Origin: Verrucomicrobiia bacterium
GTDB lineage: Bacteria > Verrucomicrobiota > Verrucomicrobiia > Opitutales > Opitutaceae
Length of the DNA stretch: 12,482 nt
Direction: 5' to 3'
Assembly: GCA_030424825.1 (NCBI GenBank)
Contig: JAUHWE010000064.1
Span: 1-12,482 of the forward strand
The first letter of the stretch is position 1; every line of letters begins with the position of its first letter. The notes under the pieces are model-generated. The model saw nothing but the letters and a program-made list of their open reading frames with translations. It did not search any database and was not told the DNA's origin. The translations under genes and the position numbers were made by a program. Positions 1,928 through 11,728 of this stretch are shown piece by piece.

Positions 1928-3574
1928 ATGGCCACAGCAGTTCGCGAATTCGATTGTCTCATTTTCGGAGGAGGCTTAGCCGGATCCGTCCTCGCGTGGA
2001 CACTGATCGAAAATGGCAAACGGCCCCTCGTCATTGACCGGTTTGGCAAATCCCGATGCTCTCAGGTTGCCGCCGGGCTCATCAATCCCATTGGAGGGAA
2101 ACGGCTCAATCTAGTCTGGGAAGCGGCAAAGCAGATTCACTTCGCTCAGACGTTCTACAAGCGCCTGGAAGCAAAATTTGGCCGCCAATTCTTTTCCGAG
2201 CGAAAAGTCGCCCGTCTTTTCTCTAATGAAAGTGAACAATGTCTTTGGGATAAAAAGAAGAATCTAGTCGAATACCAAGAATGGACTTCCCCTCTCAAAA
2301 TAGACGAACTCCCCAATTATCTGGTCTCAAAGGAGCTTTCCGGAATGGCCATAAAAGGAGCGGGCATCGTCAAGATACCTGACTTGATCGCTAGTATTCA
2401 TCAAGGCCTTTCCCTGGAAAACGCCCTGGAAAGGACCGAGTTCAGGTACCAAGATATCACCGTCCGCAATGGATCAATCATTTGGAAAGAATACGAGGCT
2501 CCCTATGCCGTTTTCGCTGAAGGTCATCTCGCAACTGAAAATCCTTGGTTCAGATTTATCCCTTATCGCCCCGCCAAAGGAGTCATCGGAAAAATAGAAA
2601 CTCGTGTTCCTTTAATGGATACCGTCTTAATTCAAGGGAAATTCCTCATTCCAAATCGAGAGGGTTCCGCCATTGTCGGAGCCACTTACGACTGGGAGAG
2701 CAGAACCGACAAACCTGACGCCAAAGGAATCACCGAATTGGAATCATTCTTGAGAAAACACTTGGGAACCGAATGGAAGTGGCAGGAGGTTCACGCAGGA
2801 GTTCGGCCCACGATTCCAGGAGCAATGCCCGCAGTAGGGCCCCATCCCGAATTCTCCAACCTTTTTTCGTTCAACGGATTCGGCAGCAAGGGAGCGACTC
2901 AGGTTCCTATACTCGCAAAGGCTTTATACGAATTCATATGGCGAGCGGAGTCCCTACCAATGGAAATCACTCCTATCCGATTTCAAAAGAATGCAAATTT
3001 GCTGCCTCAACGCTGGATCGCAGTAGAGATCGCTCGCGATCGGGTTAAACAACATCTTGTTGCCGGTGACACGGTCATAGATGCTACCACAGGCAACGGT
3101 CATGACACACTCTGGCTAGCTCAATCTGTGGGTCCAACCGGTACTGTATACGCATTCGACATACAAAATTCCGCAATCGAAATCGCTAGAGAGAGATTAG
3201 CGAATGAGAACGCTCCTGCGCAAATAGTGTTTCTAAACACTTGCCATTCCCATATAGCCAAGTCCTTGCCTTCAGAGATAAGCGCTAAAGCAATCGTCTT
3301 CAATCTAGGATATTTGCCCGAAGGAGATAAGTCGATTATCACAAAAGCCGACACGACGATTTCAGCCTTAAACCAATGCCTTACGATCCTTCAACCGAAA
3401 GGAATCATCAGCATTGTTATCTATCCCGGACATCAAGGAGGATCCACAGAATCCAATGGGGTTCTTAATTGGGCACAATCACTAGACAAAAAATCCTACG
3501 CTACCGAAATCGTATCCAATCCTTCAGGAAATTTAAATTCCCCTTATCTTCTCTTCGTTCAGAAAGTTGACTGA
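1928..3574 (+). CDS. Fusion of DAO-type FAD oxidoreductase and MnmM/YtqB-like SAM methyltransferase
   Basis: Two domains are visible in 548 aa. Residues about 8-340 form a DAO-type flavoprotein. It has the dinucleotide-binding loop GGGLAGS (14-20), VAAGLINPIGGKRL (47-60), RPAKGVIG (214-221), VGATYDWE (250-257) and, near its end, AGVRPTIPG and FNGFGSKGA. Residues about 355-548 are a class I SAM methyltransferase of the YtqB/MnmM (rRNA_methylase Pfam) type, with motif I DATTGNGHDT (385-394), FDIQ (410-413), FNLGYLPEGDKSI (458-470) and YPGHQGG (499-505). MnmM is known to methylate nm5U34 of tRNA, and the DAO half of MnmC makes nm5U34 from cmnm5U34. I infer that this protein performs both steps, like MnmC but with the domain order reversed and a different methyltransferase family. 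Both active-site regions look intact. There is no clear Shine-Dalgarno sequence. It ends 13 bp from the convergent polymerase gene. Confidence 0.88.
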   Translation: MATAVREFDCLIFGGGLAGSVLAWTLIENGKRPLVIDRFGKSRCSQVAAGLINPIGGKRLNLVWEAAKQIHFAQTFYKRLEAKFGRQFFSERKVARLFSNESEQCLWDKKKNLVEYQEWTSPLKIDELPNYLVSKELSGMAIKGAGIVKIPDLIASIHQGLSLENALERTEFRYQDITVRNGSIIWKEYEAPYAVFAEGHLATENPWFRFIPYRPAKGVIGKIETRVPLMDTVLIQGKFLIPNREGSAIVGATYDWESRTDKPDAKGITELESFLRKHLGTEWKWQEVHAGVRPTIPGAMPAVGPHPEFSNLFSFNGFGSKGATQVPILAKALYEFIWRAESLPMEITPIRFQKNANLLPQRWIAVEIARDRVKQHLVAGDTVIDATTGNGHDTLWLAQSVGPTGTVYAFDIQNSAIEIARERLANENAPAQIVFLNTCHSHIAKSLPSEISAKAIVFNLGYLPEGDKSIITKADTTISALNQCLTILQPKGIISIVIYPGHQGGSTESNGVLNWAQSLDKKSYATEIVSNPSGNLNSPYLLFVQKVD

Positions 3575-3587
3575 CTATAGACTCAAT

Positions 3588-5786
3588 CTATTCAAATAAC
3601 TCTCTCTGATCTCGATCTTTCGCCAAATCCGGATGAAACGGAACGTAACGCGTTCTCCAGTCATTCAGTTTTTTCACATAGTACTTGGGATCGTAGGGAG
3701 CCGTTTCGGCATCAAATAAATCGACCGGATTCGCTCGTTGCCAATCCGCAGTCTGTCCCTTCTCCTTTGGAGAGATATAGTAGGATATGCGGTCTCCCAT
3801 CCGAACATTCTCACCTAGCTTCAGGGCCACTTCCGCCGATGCGCGTCTCGGTTTCCCACCAGAATCGATCTTCTTTTTATACGCTTCCGGATTCTGGCTC
3901 AGAATCTCTGACTTCGCGAGACGTTCGACTGGGTATTTGCCTGATTCTATTTCCAACTCAATTTTTTGAGCAAGGTCTGCCGGATTCTTTTCCGACGCAC
4001 CGAGCAGAAACCGAATCAGCTTTTGCGTAAGGGATCTCAAAAAAGGCTCAACCCCTCGGGAGCGCATCGCCGAACCTCGAATGATCACCTTTTCCCCGTC
4101 GTATAGCGCGTAGTTCTTCGCTTTGTAGCAGAACATTGTCTCATATCTGCCATCATACTCCAGTTCGATACCGTCTGGCAGAATTTCCTGGGCTTGTTCT
4201 AGCAATTTTTCTGGATCATCGAAATACTCATTTGCCTCAACATAGATCCCATCCGTATCCGCTTCCAGCGGAGAGCAGCCCACTTTTTCAAAAAAAGCTA
4301 TGAGTGATTGGAGAATCTCCCGACCTTTTGCCGTCACCTCCGCTGCGAGATCGGCGTCGCCAAACCGGGCTCCCGCAAAACCTAGGTAACCGTAAAACGA
4401 GTTTATGAGAATCTTGAAACTCGTTTGCCGCGCATTGTATTCAGAGACCAATGCCGGATCCTTTGTTTCTTGTGCCAGTTTTTTGAATTTCATCCGATAC
4501 TCCCGGAGTTGCTTTAACATCGGAATAAAAACCCCTTCCGTGTCTGGCTCTGGATTGCGCCCAATCAGGAGTAACAAGCTGGGATAAAGCGAAGCGACGT
4601 CGAAATGCAGTACTCTTTTGAACACCCCATCTTTGAAACTCGCAGTATAGCCTCCGGCAAAGGTATGCGTCTCACCTGGCATGGGGCAAGCGGCTTTCAG
4701 ATGGAAGTACTTCTCCTGGAACACAAGGTCTACCTTGCTCGCCGTTCCTCTGAGGCAAGCCTCCTGCAAGGTCGTTGGAAAAGCCTTGGTTTGCTCGAAG
4801 TAAGTTGGCAAAAGCCGATCCGCGACCCCTTTCGTTTCTCGCAGGTCGTCTCGCAGGTAATCCAAGAAAAGACCGCGATCGTCATCAAACATGTACTGGA
4901 TTTTCGATCCCTCAATATAGACCCGATCTCCCCCATCGTCGGGAGTCACTCCCATATAACGTGCCACGTCTTTCAATCCATAAGACATTAACTCCCTCGT
5001 TGTAATGTCGTGAATCTGAATTAAAATGAACGTATCCACAACCGCACGTCCCGGTAAATCGCAACGCGGATAGTCAATCCATCGTTCTGCTACTCTCAGT
5101 CGACTATTCCTAAAACTAGCCTTCTGCCCAAAGCGTCCCCAGCGGGCCGGAACTTTCAACATTTGCGAACGACGGCGCAAGTACTCCAAATCGAATTTGA
5201 AGATATTGTGCCCTTCTACTACATCCGGATCCCATTCCTGAAACCGATCGATTAACCGCTCCAACAAACGCTTTTCCGCTTCATTCGTCCGTTCCTCTAA
5301 GACAAGTGTATCCACCTTGTCACCGCATTGAATTCCAATGGCCAGCACTCGATCCTCGTTTCGTTTCGGATCACTGAATCCACCTTCCTCAGAACAAGCG
5401 GTCTCAATATCGAGTTGCATCCGGCGGAGGCCTACGAATGGCATGTCTTTGAATAGGCGCGCTTGATTCGTTAGCAGAAACTGCTGTTCCAATTGACGTA
5501 TCCAGTCAATGGAACCCGATCGTCCTTTATCTTTTACAAAACCACGATAGTCCTCAAGGTCTTCGAACTCGATCAAATGCCGATAGCTCGCGCTTCCCGA
5601 TAACGGCGATACGGACGCGCCCACGACAAGATCCCCAATCGCGCTATCCATCGCCCACACGAAAGGCGAGAAACCGGCTGTTTCCGTTTTGCGAGGGCCT
5701 TCTCCGTCGTCCCATGCCAGATGGGTCTGCCCTTCAGGACTGATCCAAACGCCGCAAAGCGAGGGTCCAGAATCCGAGGCCGACAT
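3588..5786 (-). CDS. polB: Family B DNA polymerase (Pol II-like) with 3'-5' exonuclease
   Basis: This is a template-directed DNA polymerase with proofreading, 732 aa against 783 for E. coli Pol II. The exonuclease motifs are present: Exo I MQLDIET (D126, E128), Exo II HNIFKFD (N194, D199) and Exo III YLRDD (Y310, D314). The polymerase motifs follow: A HFDVASLYPS (395-403), B SFKILINSFYG (456-466), C EADTDGIYV (508-516), and KAKNYAL (555-561). All metal-binding acids are in place, so it should be active in both functions. I chose the ATG at 5786 because its A is the last base of the preceding gene's stop (TGATG). A TTG at 5906 would add 40 residues that merely read through that gene. The arrangement suggests coupled translation. 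In E. coli this family works in translesion and restart synthesis under SOS control. I see no LexA-type box here, so the role in this organism is open. Confidence 0.95.
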   Translation of the reverse strand: MSASDSGPSLCGVWISPEGQTHLAWDDGEGPRKTETAGFSPFVWAMDSAIGDLVVGASVSPLSGSASYRHLIEFEDLEDYRGFVKDKGRSGSIDWIRQLEQQFLLTNQARLFKDMPFVGLRRMQLDIETACSEEGGFSDPKRNEDRVLAIGIQCGDKVDTLVLEERTNEAEKRLLERLIDRFQEWDPDVVEGHNIFKFDLEYLRRRSQMLKVPARWGRFGQKASFRNSRLRVAERWIDYPRCDLPGRAVVDTFILIQIHDITTRELMSYGLKDVARYMGVTPDDGGDRVYIEGSKIQYMFDDDRGLFLDYLRDDLRETKGVADRLLPTYFEQTKAFPTTLQEACLRGTASKVDLVFQEKYFHLKAACPMPGETHTFAGGYTASFKDGVFKRVLHFDVASLYPSLLLLIGRNPEPDTEGVFIPMLKQLREYRMKFKKLAQETKDPALVSEYNARQTSFKILINSFYGYLGFAGARFGDADLAAEVTAKGREILQSLIAFFEKVGCSPLEADTDGIYVEANEYFDDPEKLLEQAQEILPDGIELEYDGRYETMFCYKAKNYALYDGEKVIIRGSAMRSRGVEPFLRSLTQKLIRFLLGASEKNPADLAQKIELEIESGKYPVERLAKSEILSQNPEAYKKKIDSGGKPRRASAEVALKLGENVRMGDRISYYISPKEKGQTADWQRANPVDLFDAETAPYDPKYYVKKLNDWRTRYVPFHPDLAKDRDQRELFE

Positions 5787-6127
5787 CAGAAGGGCCGGAA
5801 ATACACCATGAACACTGCGACACCTACCGCGATCACCAGCCCAGCATGAATAAAGGACTTCGACTTTTTGTAAGCCATCCCACCCAATCCGGAAACGAAC
5901 AGCCAAGCGAGTATTTTCACAATCACCCAGCCCTGTCCCCAGTTGTTGTTATGCAGTTTAGACATCAACCCAGCTCCTGCTACCAGGGCCACTAAAGCCA
6001 AGATCCCAGTCACGATCGCCATCAACTTCTTTTTGCGCTTCTGCGGATTCGCCGCGATAGCGAAGGTAAACCCTGTGAGGAGAATTATGGAAAAAACATG
6101 TAGGAATTGGTAGATCTTCGGGTCCAT
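5786..6127 (-). CDS. Small four-helix membrane protein of unknown function
   Basis: I do not recognise a named family with confidence. The 113-aa product has four hydrophobic segments at about 8-26, 35-54, 67-87 and 92-110. A lysine/arginine-rich loop (PQKRKKKL) follows the first helix and a KKSK loop lies between the third and fourth, so both basic loops are probably cytoplasmic. The second helix is small-residue rich (VAGAGL) and the loop after it holds HNNNWGQGW. The general shape recalls SirB/CopD-like small membrane proteins, but that is only a resemblance. The ATG at 6127 lies just downstream of a promoter-like -10, so the mRNA may be almost leaderless. Its stop overlaps the polymerase start by one base (TGATG), which makes it the first gene of a two-gene unit. 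Confidence 0.85.
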   Translation of the reverse strand: MDPKIYQFLHVFSIILLTGFTFAIAANPQKRKKKLMAIVTGILALVALVAGAGLMSKLHNNNWGQGWVIVKILAWLFVSGLGGMAYKKSKSFIHAGLVIAVGVAVFMVYFRPF

Positions 6128-10420: not shown

Positions 10421-11728
10421 ATGGACGAAGGTATATCCAGTATTAATCCGACCGATTTACGCGGCATCCTCAATTATGTCCCAAGATTTCTGGGACAAAC
10501 ATTCGTCATTTCGCTAGACGGCGCTATCATCGAGAATGAGAACCTCCCCAATCTTCTCTTGGACATTGCGGTGCTTAGAAGTTTGCAGATCAACGTCGTT
10601 ATCGCCCATGGCATCAGCAAGCAGCTCACAGAACTCTCTGCAAGTCGTGGCATCAAAATATCCAACGCGGATGGTTCCGGCGTCACAGACAAACCCACTC
10701 TCGATCTAGCGATACGCGCCTCGTCTCGGGCGTCCCACCAGATACTAGAAGCGCTGACTCAATCCGGTCTGAAATGCGCCATTACCAATTCTGTTCGCTC
10801 CACCCCGATAGGAATCCTCAAAGGAGTCGATTTCCTGAGAAGCGGCAAGGTCGACCGAATCGATGCGGAATTCCTGAGCCATTTGATTTCCAAAAGCATT
10901 ATTCCTATAATTCAGCCGATCGGTTTCGACCGGAACGGACATACCTATCGGATAAACAGCGATCTTCTGGCGATCGAAGTCGCCTTCGCCTTGAAAGCCA
11001 CTAAGACGATTTTCATAACGGAACAAGACGGTCTTGAAATTGAAGGCGAGTTCGCCCATCAGCTATCCGTAGAAGCCCTCGAAGCTAAACTCACCGCCAG
11101 TTCCGGGAACAGCGGGATCGTGGAGCCCTATCTCAGCAAAGCGAAACATGCTCTTGCAGGAGTAAAAGGAGGGATCGCTCGTATCCACATTTTAAACGGT
11201 AATATTCACGACGGACTCATCCGGGAAGTCTTTTCCAATGAGGGAGTGGGAACCCTTGTTTACGGAAACGAGTACCAGCAGATCAGACAAGCAAGACGCT
11301 CGGACGTTGCCAGAATCTACAATCTCACCAGCGGGTCAGTGGAGAAGGAGGAACTGGCTCGCCGATCAATCGAGTCAATCGAGCACGATATCAAAAACTT
11401 CTATGTCTACGAGATAGACGGTAATCTGGTGGGTTGCGTTCTGATAACTCGATTCGAAGACGAAGCCTCAACCGCAGAAATAAACGCCTTGTTTGTTCAT
11501 CCTTTGCACCAGCGACAAGGCATCGGATCGAAACTCACGAATTTCGCCTGCCTCAAACTGAAAGAGCTCGGTGTGGAACGGGTACTGGCCCTCTCAACTC
11601 AAAGCGTCGGATTTTTCGAGACGATAACCGGGTTCAAAGAGTCAGGTTCGGACTCTCTGCCGAAAAGTCGCCAAGCGAGCTACGTTTCTCAAAACCGCAA
11701 ATCGAAGATCTTCTCTAAAACCTTGTAG
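10421..11728 (+). CDS. argA: N-acetylglutamate synthase (amino-acid N-acetyltransferase)
   Basis: ArgA acetylates glutamate with acetyl-CoA, the first step of arginine synthesis. The 435-aa product (E. coli 443) has an amino-acid-kinase-like domain at about 20-285: GQTFVISLDGAIIENENL, DIAVLRSLQINVVIAHG, VDRIDAEFL, YRINSDLLAIEVAFALKA and FSNEGVGTLV. A GNAT domain follows at about 286-435, with the acetyl-CoA loop HQRQGIGSKL (363-372), AEINALFVHP and the ArgA signature end LPKSRQASYVSQNRKSK (413-429). The kinase-like domain serves allosteric arginine control in this family, and its GG dipeptide is DG here. The ATG at 10421 has no Shine-Dalgarno sequence but a consensus -10 about 20 bp upstream. 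NAGK/ArgB was excluded because of the intact GNAT half. The next gene converges 26 bp beyond its stop. Confidence 0.96.
   Translation: MDEGISSINPTDLRGILNYVPRFLGQTFVISLDGAIIENENLPNLLLDIAVLRSLQINVVIAHGISKQLTELSASRGIKISNADGSGVTDKPTLDLAIRASSRASHQILEALTQSGLKCAITNSVRSTPIGILKGVDFLRSGKVDRIDAEFLSHLISKSIIPIIQPIGFDRNGHTYRINSDLLAIEVAFALKATKTIFITEQDGLEIEGEFAHQLSVEALEAKLTASSGNSGIVEPYLSKAKHALAGVKGGIARIHILNGNIHDGLIREVFSNEGVGTLVYGNEYQQIRQARRSDVARIYNLTSGSVEKEELARRSIESIEHDIKNFYVYEIDGNLVGCVLITRFEDEASTAEINALFVHPLHQRQGIGSKLTNFACLKLKELGVERVLALSTQSVGFFETITGFKESGSDSLPKSRQASYVSQNRKSKIFSKTL

Follow-up and report, generated by a model that had tools for sequence, protein, structure and literature searches.

A two-domain gene in the window and its genomic setting

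The window, i.e., the entire stretch of 12,482 nucleotides that was analysed, stems from a Verrucomicrobiia bacterium of the family Opitutaceae. It carries on its forward strand a gene with an ATG start (positions 1928..3574) for a protein of 548 amino acids that unites two enzyme domains (open reading frame list; Pfam and NCBIfam scans). The N-terminal half (residues 9-333; 1952..2926) is an FAD-dependent oxidoreductase of the DAO type (PF01266, 90.5 bits), a candidate for the oxidase converting cmnm5U34 into nm5U34; a profile search of the source genome returned coordinates for this half identical to those of the Pfam scan. An interdomain linker (about residues 338-365; 2939..3022), which corresponds to the gap between the two profile matches, leads to the MnmM methyltransferase half (residues 366-546; 3023..3565). 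This part scores 199.1 bits with NF053511, the MnmM equivalog of NCBIfam (cut-off 135; residues 366-546), and 141.2 bits with the Pfam family rRNA_methylase (PF06962; residues 407-544), and its matches in the PDB include the MnmM proteins of B. subtilis and S. aureus. A first-pass annotation of the window had read the gene as a DAO oxidoreductase and an MnmM-type methyltransferase in one chain, with the domain order reversed relative to that of MnmC. The matches to PF01266, PF06962 and NF053511 bear this out: all motifs quoted there are present in the translation, and the DAO domain (9-333) precedes the MnmM domain (366-546).

Structure prediction and profile searches of each half, proposed as a check at that time, yielded a confident DAO domain and a confident MnmM domain. 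Since the AlphaFold model of the fusion protein has a mean pLDDT of 92.1 and a pTM of 0.71, each domain is modelled confidently and their relative placing less so; within the linker, the mean pLDDT falls to 65 (residues 351-360). In Foldseek comparisons, glycine oxidases and CmiS2 were the best matches of the DAO part, with MnmC lower down and with N-methyl amine oxidases (for example sarcosine oxidase) also represented. The methyltransferase part matched MnmM/YtqB structures, aligned over nearly their full length.

Several other genes are present in the window. The gene for the epoxyqueuosine reductase QueG (85-1302; TIGR00276, 296.2 bits), a wobble-base enzyme, lies two genes away from the fusion gene on the opposite strand. 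A family-B DNA polymerase with an exonuclease domain (3588-5906, reverse strand) is convergent with the fusion gene and adjoins it in the four related records L025-L028 as well. Further downstream, a forward-strand frame (10421-11728) combines an amino-acid kinase with a GNAT domain and reads like a classical N-acetylglutamate synthase.

The source genome comprises 5.04 Mb in 811 contigs and is 89% complete. Profile searches located mnmG (743.7 bits) and, close to it on the same contig (C98), mnmE (TrmE_N, 126.6 bits). Neither the fusion protein nor this 89%-complete genome contains a PF05430 methyltransferase, and a second MnmM domain was likewise not found in it. No protein of the genome exceeds the cut-off of TIGR01212 (best score 26.7 vs. 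180 bits), a family that we take to cover YtqA and to be wider than MnmL. The first-pass annotation had expected mnmE and mnmG alongside a missing conventional MnmC and had named the opposite genome contents as grounds for abandoning its proposal; with both mnm genes present and PF05430 absent, neither of these grounds was encountered. The other full-length DAO protein of the source genome was set aside; its sequence looks like that of a glycerol-3-phosphate dehydrogenase.

Recurrence of the fusion and partners of the oxidase

A search with the whole protein, for which candidates were restricted to similar length (a setting that favours fusions), gave 515 matches, and all 120 of those listed, the source protein included, carry both domains; among the carriers are Pelagicoccus, Kaarinaea, Mariprofundus, Schlesneria and Fuerstiella. 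In four Opitutales records (L025-L028), the order of the genes for QueG, AroK, the family-B DNA polymerase, a SirB-like protein, two small frames and ClpS is kept around the fusion gene. ProS is kept as well in three of these four, and the contig of the remaining one (L027) stops before the ProS position. A record from the same genus as the source (L183) shows QueG, AroK and the polymerase within its shorter stretch, and another (L030) has none of the other genes of the source locus within its 4.1 kb. Because all 120 listed homologues are fused and four Opitutales records retain the neighbourhood, the fusion is no accident of assembly, and we could rule out both an assembly artefact and a chance adjacency, given its presence in many independent records.

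A second search with the DAO half, sized so that most fusions stay out, gave 916 matches, and the 120 listed included 115 new separate DAO proteins and three new fusions. Two peptide patterns from the DAO half were also used to scan a single genome of each species; this yielded at least 343 confirmed loci, the best 80 of which were used. In five of these 80 the DAO gene is fused to MnmM, in 34 a separate MnmM gene is adjacent on the same strand, and in 41 the examined stretch is without MnmM. The adjacent gene lies directly downstream of the DAO gene in 33 of the 34 cases (it is upstream in L031). Taking the start codon nearest to the profile match as the likeliest, 29 of these 33 MnmM genes share 4 to 40 bases with the DAO gene, and the other four begin 2 to 72 bases behind it. 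Judged by their record titles, the 39 linked loci belong to Gammaproteobacteria (Methylobacter, Methylomonas and others), Nitrosomonas, Zetaproteobacteria, Hyphomicrobiales, Planctomycetota, Verrucomicrobiota and Omnitrophota, with one Kapaibacterium record. Five changes are needed to explain the fused state on the DAO tree, four of which are forced by well-supported branches of a quick tree; fusion (or splitting) has therefore happened repeatedly. The DAO-MnmM architecture is thus real and recurrent, and the survey of its spread that the first-pass annotation had called for revealed not a single curiosity but DAO and MnmM genes adjacent or fused in several phyla.

Within the source phylum, an MnmM domain is present in 46 of the 288 sampled genomes, and a fusion-sized MnmM frame (>500 amino acids) in only two of these 46, the source genome and one genome of the same genus; hence, fusion is not the norm in this phylum. 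Ten loci sampled from the phylum (L119-L128) have a separate MnmM gene and lack this DAO in the roughly 1.5 kb to each side of it. An oxidase or MnmL partner of these MnmM genes was not found, and inspection by eye of two of the loci (L120 and L126) for a neighbouring MnmL gave no dependable candidate. Nine of the ten separate MnmM genes belong to one family (f7).

We then asked which methyltransferase accompanies the DAO. MnmM is encoded in 48 of the 80 DAO genomes, 39 times linked and nine times elsewhere (in two of these nine, L072 and L074, the contig ends right after the DAO gene). PF05430 exceeds the Pfam cut-off of 22 bits in 27 of the 80 genomes (11 of 50 plus 16 of 30): 22 matches, mostly from Bacteroidota, are strong (≥63.9 bits) and five are weak (23.9-29.5 bits). 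A strong PF05430 match and MnmM occur together in none of the 80 genomes, and a weak match (24.3-29.5 bits) co-occurs with MnmM in three of the 48. Ten genomes, all of them MAG records, have neither methyltransferase (eight if weak PF05430 matches are counted). Without correction for kinship, the exclusion of MnmM and PF05430 has a Fisher p-value of 2e-12 for the strong matches and of 1e-10 for all. That MnmM and MnmC exclude each other has been reported before (PMC9976899); the addition made here is that one DAO subfamily pairs with either methyltransferase. In Bacteroidota, the DAO probably works with a separate methyltransferase of the PF05430 (MnmC2/MnmD) type.

Individual Bacteroidetes records offer further detail. 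In one of them (L036, 5321-7035), an MnmC2-type frame that scores 57 bits with E. coli MnmC2 lies directly upstream of the DAO frame and overlaps its start, so that the order of MnmC is present without a fusion. In two others with this DAO (L043 and L050), MnmM is encoded elsewhere in the genome and PF05430 is missing, as though one methyltransferase had replaced the other.

Family placement of the two halves

Three motifs of the methyltransferase half could be aligned with B. subtilis MnmM (8h0s). In DATTGNGHDT (residues 385-394; 3080..3109), D393 corresponds to D34; in NLGYLPEGDK (459-468; 3302..3331), N459, Y462 and K468 correspond to N101, Y104 and K110; and in YPGH (499-502; 3422..3433), Y499 and H502 correspond to Y141 and H144. 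Thus six of seven key residues are identical in the fusion protein, and the seventh, K11, is replaced by Arg370. The B. subtilis variants K11E, D34A, N101A/D, Y104A, K110E, Y141F and H144A are nearly inactive, and Y104F retains about one third of the activity (PMC9976899). In an alignment of 58 fusions drawn from the 120 listed proteins, the equivalents of D34 and N101 are invariant (58/58), those of Y141 and H144 occur in 55, that of Y104 in 50 and that of K110 in 42; in view of the variation at Y104 and K110, some members may differ in their tRNA contacts. By the curated cut-off and its key residues, the C-terminal half is MnmM, and methylation of nm5(s2)U34 is its predicted reaction.

The DAO half carries the dinucleotide-binding motif GGGLAG (residues 14-19; 1967..1984), in which G14, G16, A18 and G19 are invariant in all 58 aligned fusions, and a signature of the subfamily, AAGLINPIGGKR (residues 48-59; 2069..2104), with invariant A49, G50, P54 and G57 (58/58); the columns of this signature differ from those of MnmC1 and of ThiO. 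Arg293 (2804..2806), again invariant (58/58), is aligned with the arginine of the GLRP motif in solved glycine oxidases and presumably occupies the position of the carboxylate-binding R302 of the B. subtilis enzyme. Since a carboxylate-binding arginine is common in DAO oxidases, Arg293 does not name the substrate. Near the flavin, NGFGSKG (residues 316-322; 2873..2893) contains the GxGS[RK]G motif that is common to MnmC1.

We counted these near-flavin motifs on whole reading frames. GxG[STA][RK]G is present in 72 of the 80 DAO loci, the other eight having neither this motif nor that of ThiO, and in 218 of the 238 listed proteins (115/123 fused, 103/115 separate), the remainder again having neither. 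A wider pattern (Gly, Ala or Ser first) occurs in 19 of 20 MnmC1 proteins and in none of the seven ThiO and seven other rows of the tree described below. Conversely, the ThiO motif G[HQ]xRxG is found in all seven ThiO rows (one of them just below the family cut-off) and, at the place tested, in none of the 80 DAO loci; a looser ThiO pattern matched one of 59 DAO rows. As the GxGS[RK]G-type motif is present in both the DAO subfamily and MnmC1 and absent from ThiO, the subfamily resembles MnmC1 near the flavin.

Profile scores set the DAO half apart from both of these families. It reaches 77.9 bits with the ThiO profile (TIGR02352; cut-off 250.8), the highest bit score with any DAO-type NCBIfam profile, and 73.3 bits with the MnmC1 profile (TIGR03197; cut-off 174.2). 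Both scores are far below the cut-offs, so that the DAO half is related to ThiO and MnmC1 and by the NCBI standard a member of neither. When a profile of 21 relatives was run against the PDB, glycine oxidases came first (108.7 to about 80 bits), followed by a predicted D-amino acid dehydrogenase (71.7 bits) and then by E. coli MnmC (65.5 bits).

A tree of 93 rows placed 59 DAO relatives, 20 MnmC1 and 14 ThiO-like proteins on three sides, each with 100/99 support. The DAO rows consist of the source gene, all five fused loci, 11 of 119 other fused proteins, 22 of the 34 adjacent loci, 15 of the 22 genomes with strong PF05430 and five of the nine with MnmM elsewhere. The MnmC1 rows are 19 of 20 loci above the cut-off plus the E. 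coli protein, and the 14 ThiO-like rows are seven ThiO proteins (six above the cut-off, and L165 at 245.6 vs. 250.8 bits) and seven further matches to the MnmC1 or ThiO profile below the respective cut-offs. The search that supplied the 59 DAO rows used a profile of fused DAO halves, so that the tree is bound in part to unite them; its actual test concerns their separation from MnmC1 and ThiO. Where the first-pass annotation had set amino-acid oxidases against MnmC/MnmL-type proteins, the DAO half clusters with neither MnmC1 nor ThiO and falls into a third clade. A plain MnmC1 or a plain ThiO is therefore ruled out by the sub-cut-off scores and the separate clade, and the DAO half apparently represents an undescribed subfamily of flavin oxidases.

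A proposed two-step tRNA-modifying enzyme and its relation to known systems

We consider it highly probable that the fusion protein is a bifunctional enzyme catalysing both predicted reactions of the route cmnm5U34 to nm5U34 to mnm5U34, with cmnm5U34 as the predicted substrate of its DAO half. In the proposed scheme, C5 of U34 would first receive from MnmE-MnmG a carboxymethylaminomethyl group, which is an N-substituted glycine. The N-C bond of this glycine-like group would then be oxidised by the N-terminal flavoprotein, and hydrolysis would give nm5U34; the C-terminal MnmM domain would methylate the resulting amine with SAM to mnm5U34. The oxidase belongs to a DAO subfamily distinct from MnmC1 and ThiO that would serve, fused or in an operon, as the partner of MnmM in some lineages. 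Since cmnm5U carries an N-substituted glycine, a DAO of this type would be chemically apt. According to two studies, the domains of E. coli MnmC act independently (PMC3936742), and its two active sites are about 45 Å apart (PMC3648344). For this reason we claim no channelling; joint expression, stability and the draining of the intermediate would suffice as the benefit of joining.

The two-step reading is based on the architecture, the conserved active-site residues, the linkage to MnmM, the complementary distribution of the two methyltransferases and the presence of mnmE and mnmG. Several points count against it. The DAO half stays below the MnmC1 cut-off; glycine oxidases outrank MnmC in both profile and fold searches, and in the profile search a predicted D-amino acid dehydrogenase does so as well. 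Ten of the 80 genomes have neither methyltransferase, a weak PF05430 match accompanies MnmM in three of 48, and some fusions vary at MnmM residues. Finally, the source phylum has fusion-sized frames in only two of 46 genomes and ten MnmM loci without a nearby DAO.

The prominence of glycine oxidases in these searches could mean that the DAO half is an oxidase of the ThiO kind that provides iminoglycine for thiamin, its fusion to MnmM being incidental. ThiO is indeed its best DAO-type NCBIfam match (77.9 bits), the PDB entries that match the DAO half best are glycine oxidases, and in the source genome the fusion protein is the best of three matches to the ThiO profile (79 bits; one of the others reaches 20.7). 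Yet 77.9 bits compare with a cut-off of 250.8, the DAO rows are split from the ThiO-like rows with 100/99 support, and G[HQ]xRxG is found in 0/80 DAO loci (looser pattern 1/59). Moreover, when 26 chosen genomes, 18 of them with a DAO-MnmM pair, were searched with the ThiO profile, six had a ThiO above the cut-off, and all six (two Nitrosomonas, two Mariprofundaceae, a Planctomycete and a Methylobacter) also carry the pair, with ThiO and the pair as separate paralogues. A role in thiamin synthesis would leave unexplained why, in several phyla, the DAO shares an operon or a chain with a tRNA methyltransferase, and we judge it very unlikely.

The DAO might instead act on the same tRNA base in another reaction, such as oxidative demethylation or the removal of another N-substituent, and so tune the levels of nm5 and mnm5 rather than complete the glycine route. 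N-methyl amine oxidases, sarcosine oxidase among them, also have the DAO fold, and MnmEG can make nm5U directly via an ammonium route (PMC3936742, PMC3648344). However, partnership with two unrelated nm5U methyltransferases is what one would expect of an oxidase that supplies nm5U; the motif in common with MnmC1 points the same way, and an oxidase that undoes the product of its partner would be futile, which makes this option very improbable. If MnmM were to draw on nm5U from the ammonium route, the DAO half could even be catalytically dead and merely bind tRNA or stabilise MnmM. In E. coli, the intact MnmC exceeds its isolated domains in stability (PMC3936742). But the glycines that bind FAD are conserved, as are Arg293 and the GxGSKG motif, and unfused DAO genes of the same clade persist at many loci, so that we regard a dead DAO half as very unlikely.

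If the two-step reading holds, evolution has assembled this pair of reactions at least twice, using different parts, and has repeatedly selected for the joining of the two steps. In the 2023 MnmM study (PMC9976899), the MnmC(o)-like enzyme of MnmM organisms is called unknown, and organisms with an orphan MnmC(m), including Bacteroides and alpha-Proteobacteria, are thought likely to have an MnmC(o)-like enzyme too; an oxidoreductase fused to, or in an operon with, MnmM was sought, and none was found in the comparison made there. In the open-licence literature, covered mostly through titles and the openings of abstracts, we found no description of a DAO-MnmM fusion. The fusion singles out one oxidase subfamily for testing, a candidate for the MnmC(o)-like oxidase that has been missing, and its relatives suggest an oxidase of the first step in many bacteria without a classical MnmC. 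We lean towards the view that this subfamily constitutes a third family of cmnm5U34 oxidases, not described before, apart from MnmC1 and the radical-SAM protein MnmL, that is joined to MnmM through operons and repeated fusion and to PF05430/MnmD through partnership in the genome. In that case it would provide the as yet missing MnmC(o)-like enzyme in Bacteroidota and in many members of the Pseudomonadota, Planctomycetota and Verrucomicrobiota that lack MnmC.

As an enzyme concept, the fusion protein is a variant of the MnmC kind, and its larger value is that of a pointer to an oxidase subfamily. Bifunctional MnmC of E. coli (MnmC2-MnmC1) likewise holds a SAM methyltransferase and a DAO flavoprotein in one chain, carries out the same two chemical steps that we propose for the fusion protein and has the GxGS[RK]G-type DAO motif in common with it. 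The methyltransferase of MnmC, in contrast, is of the PF05430/DUF752 type and N-terminal, whereas that of the fusion protein is MnmM and C-terminal, and the DAO of MnmC1 forms a clade separate from that of the fusion protein, which scores below the MnmC1 cut-off. The convergence on MnmC that the first-pass annotation had postulated holds for the fusion event and the swapped methyltransferase; it does not extend to the DAO fold, which is common to MnmC1. ThiO and the glycine oxidases have the DAO fold and an arginine at the equivalent place, as in the fusion protein, and differ in their separate clade and their other near-flavin motif; the fusion protein remains below the ThiO cut-off.

The methyltransferases can be compared in the same way. 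MnmM (YtqB), the nm5s2U34 methyltransferase of Bacillus, Staphylococcus and plants, is the family whose equivalog cut-off the C-terminal half exceeds and with which it has six of seven key residues in common; described MnmM proteins stand alone, while here MnmM is fused to a DAO. Stand-alone MnmC2 (DUF752, MnmD), the other nm5U methyltransferase, is of a subfamily other than MnmM; it is absent from the source genome as judged by PF05430, and 22 of 80 genomes with this DAO have a strong match to it. From work by Jaroch in 2024, MnmL is reportedly a radical-SAM protein (YtqA) in an operon with MnmM, and fusion proteins are said to occur. A 2025 review cites that work for MnmL (PMC12548931). The MnmL-MnmM route of Gram-positives likewise combines an enzyme that makes nm5U with MnmM. 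Given that MnmL reportedly belongs to the radical-SAM proteins (YtqA group), the single DAO group of an "MnmC/MnmL type" invoked in the first-pass annotation has to be given up; in the fusion protein, a flavoprotein fills the place that a radical-SAM enzyme reportedly holds in the MnmL-MnmM route.
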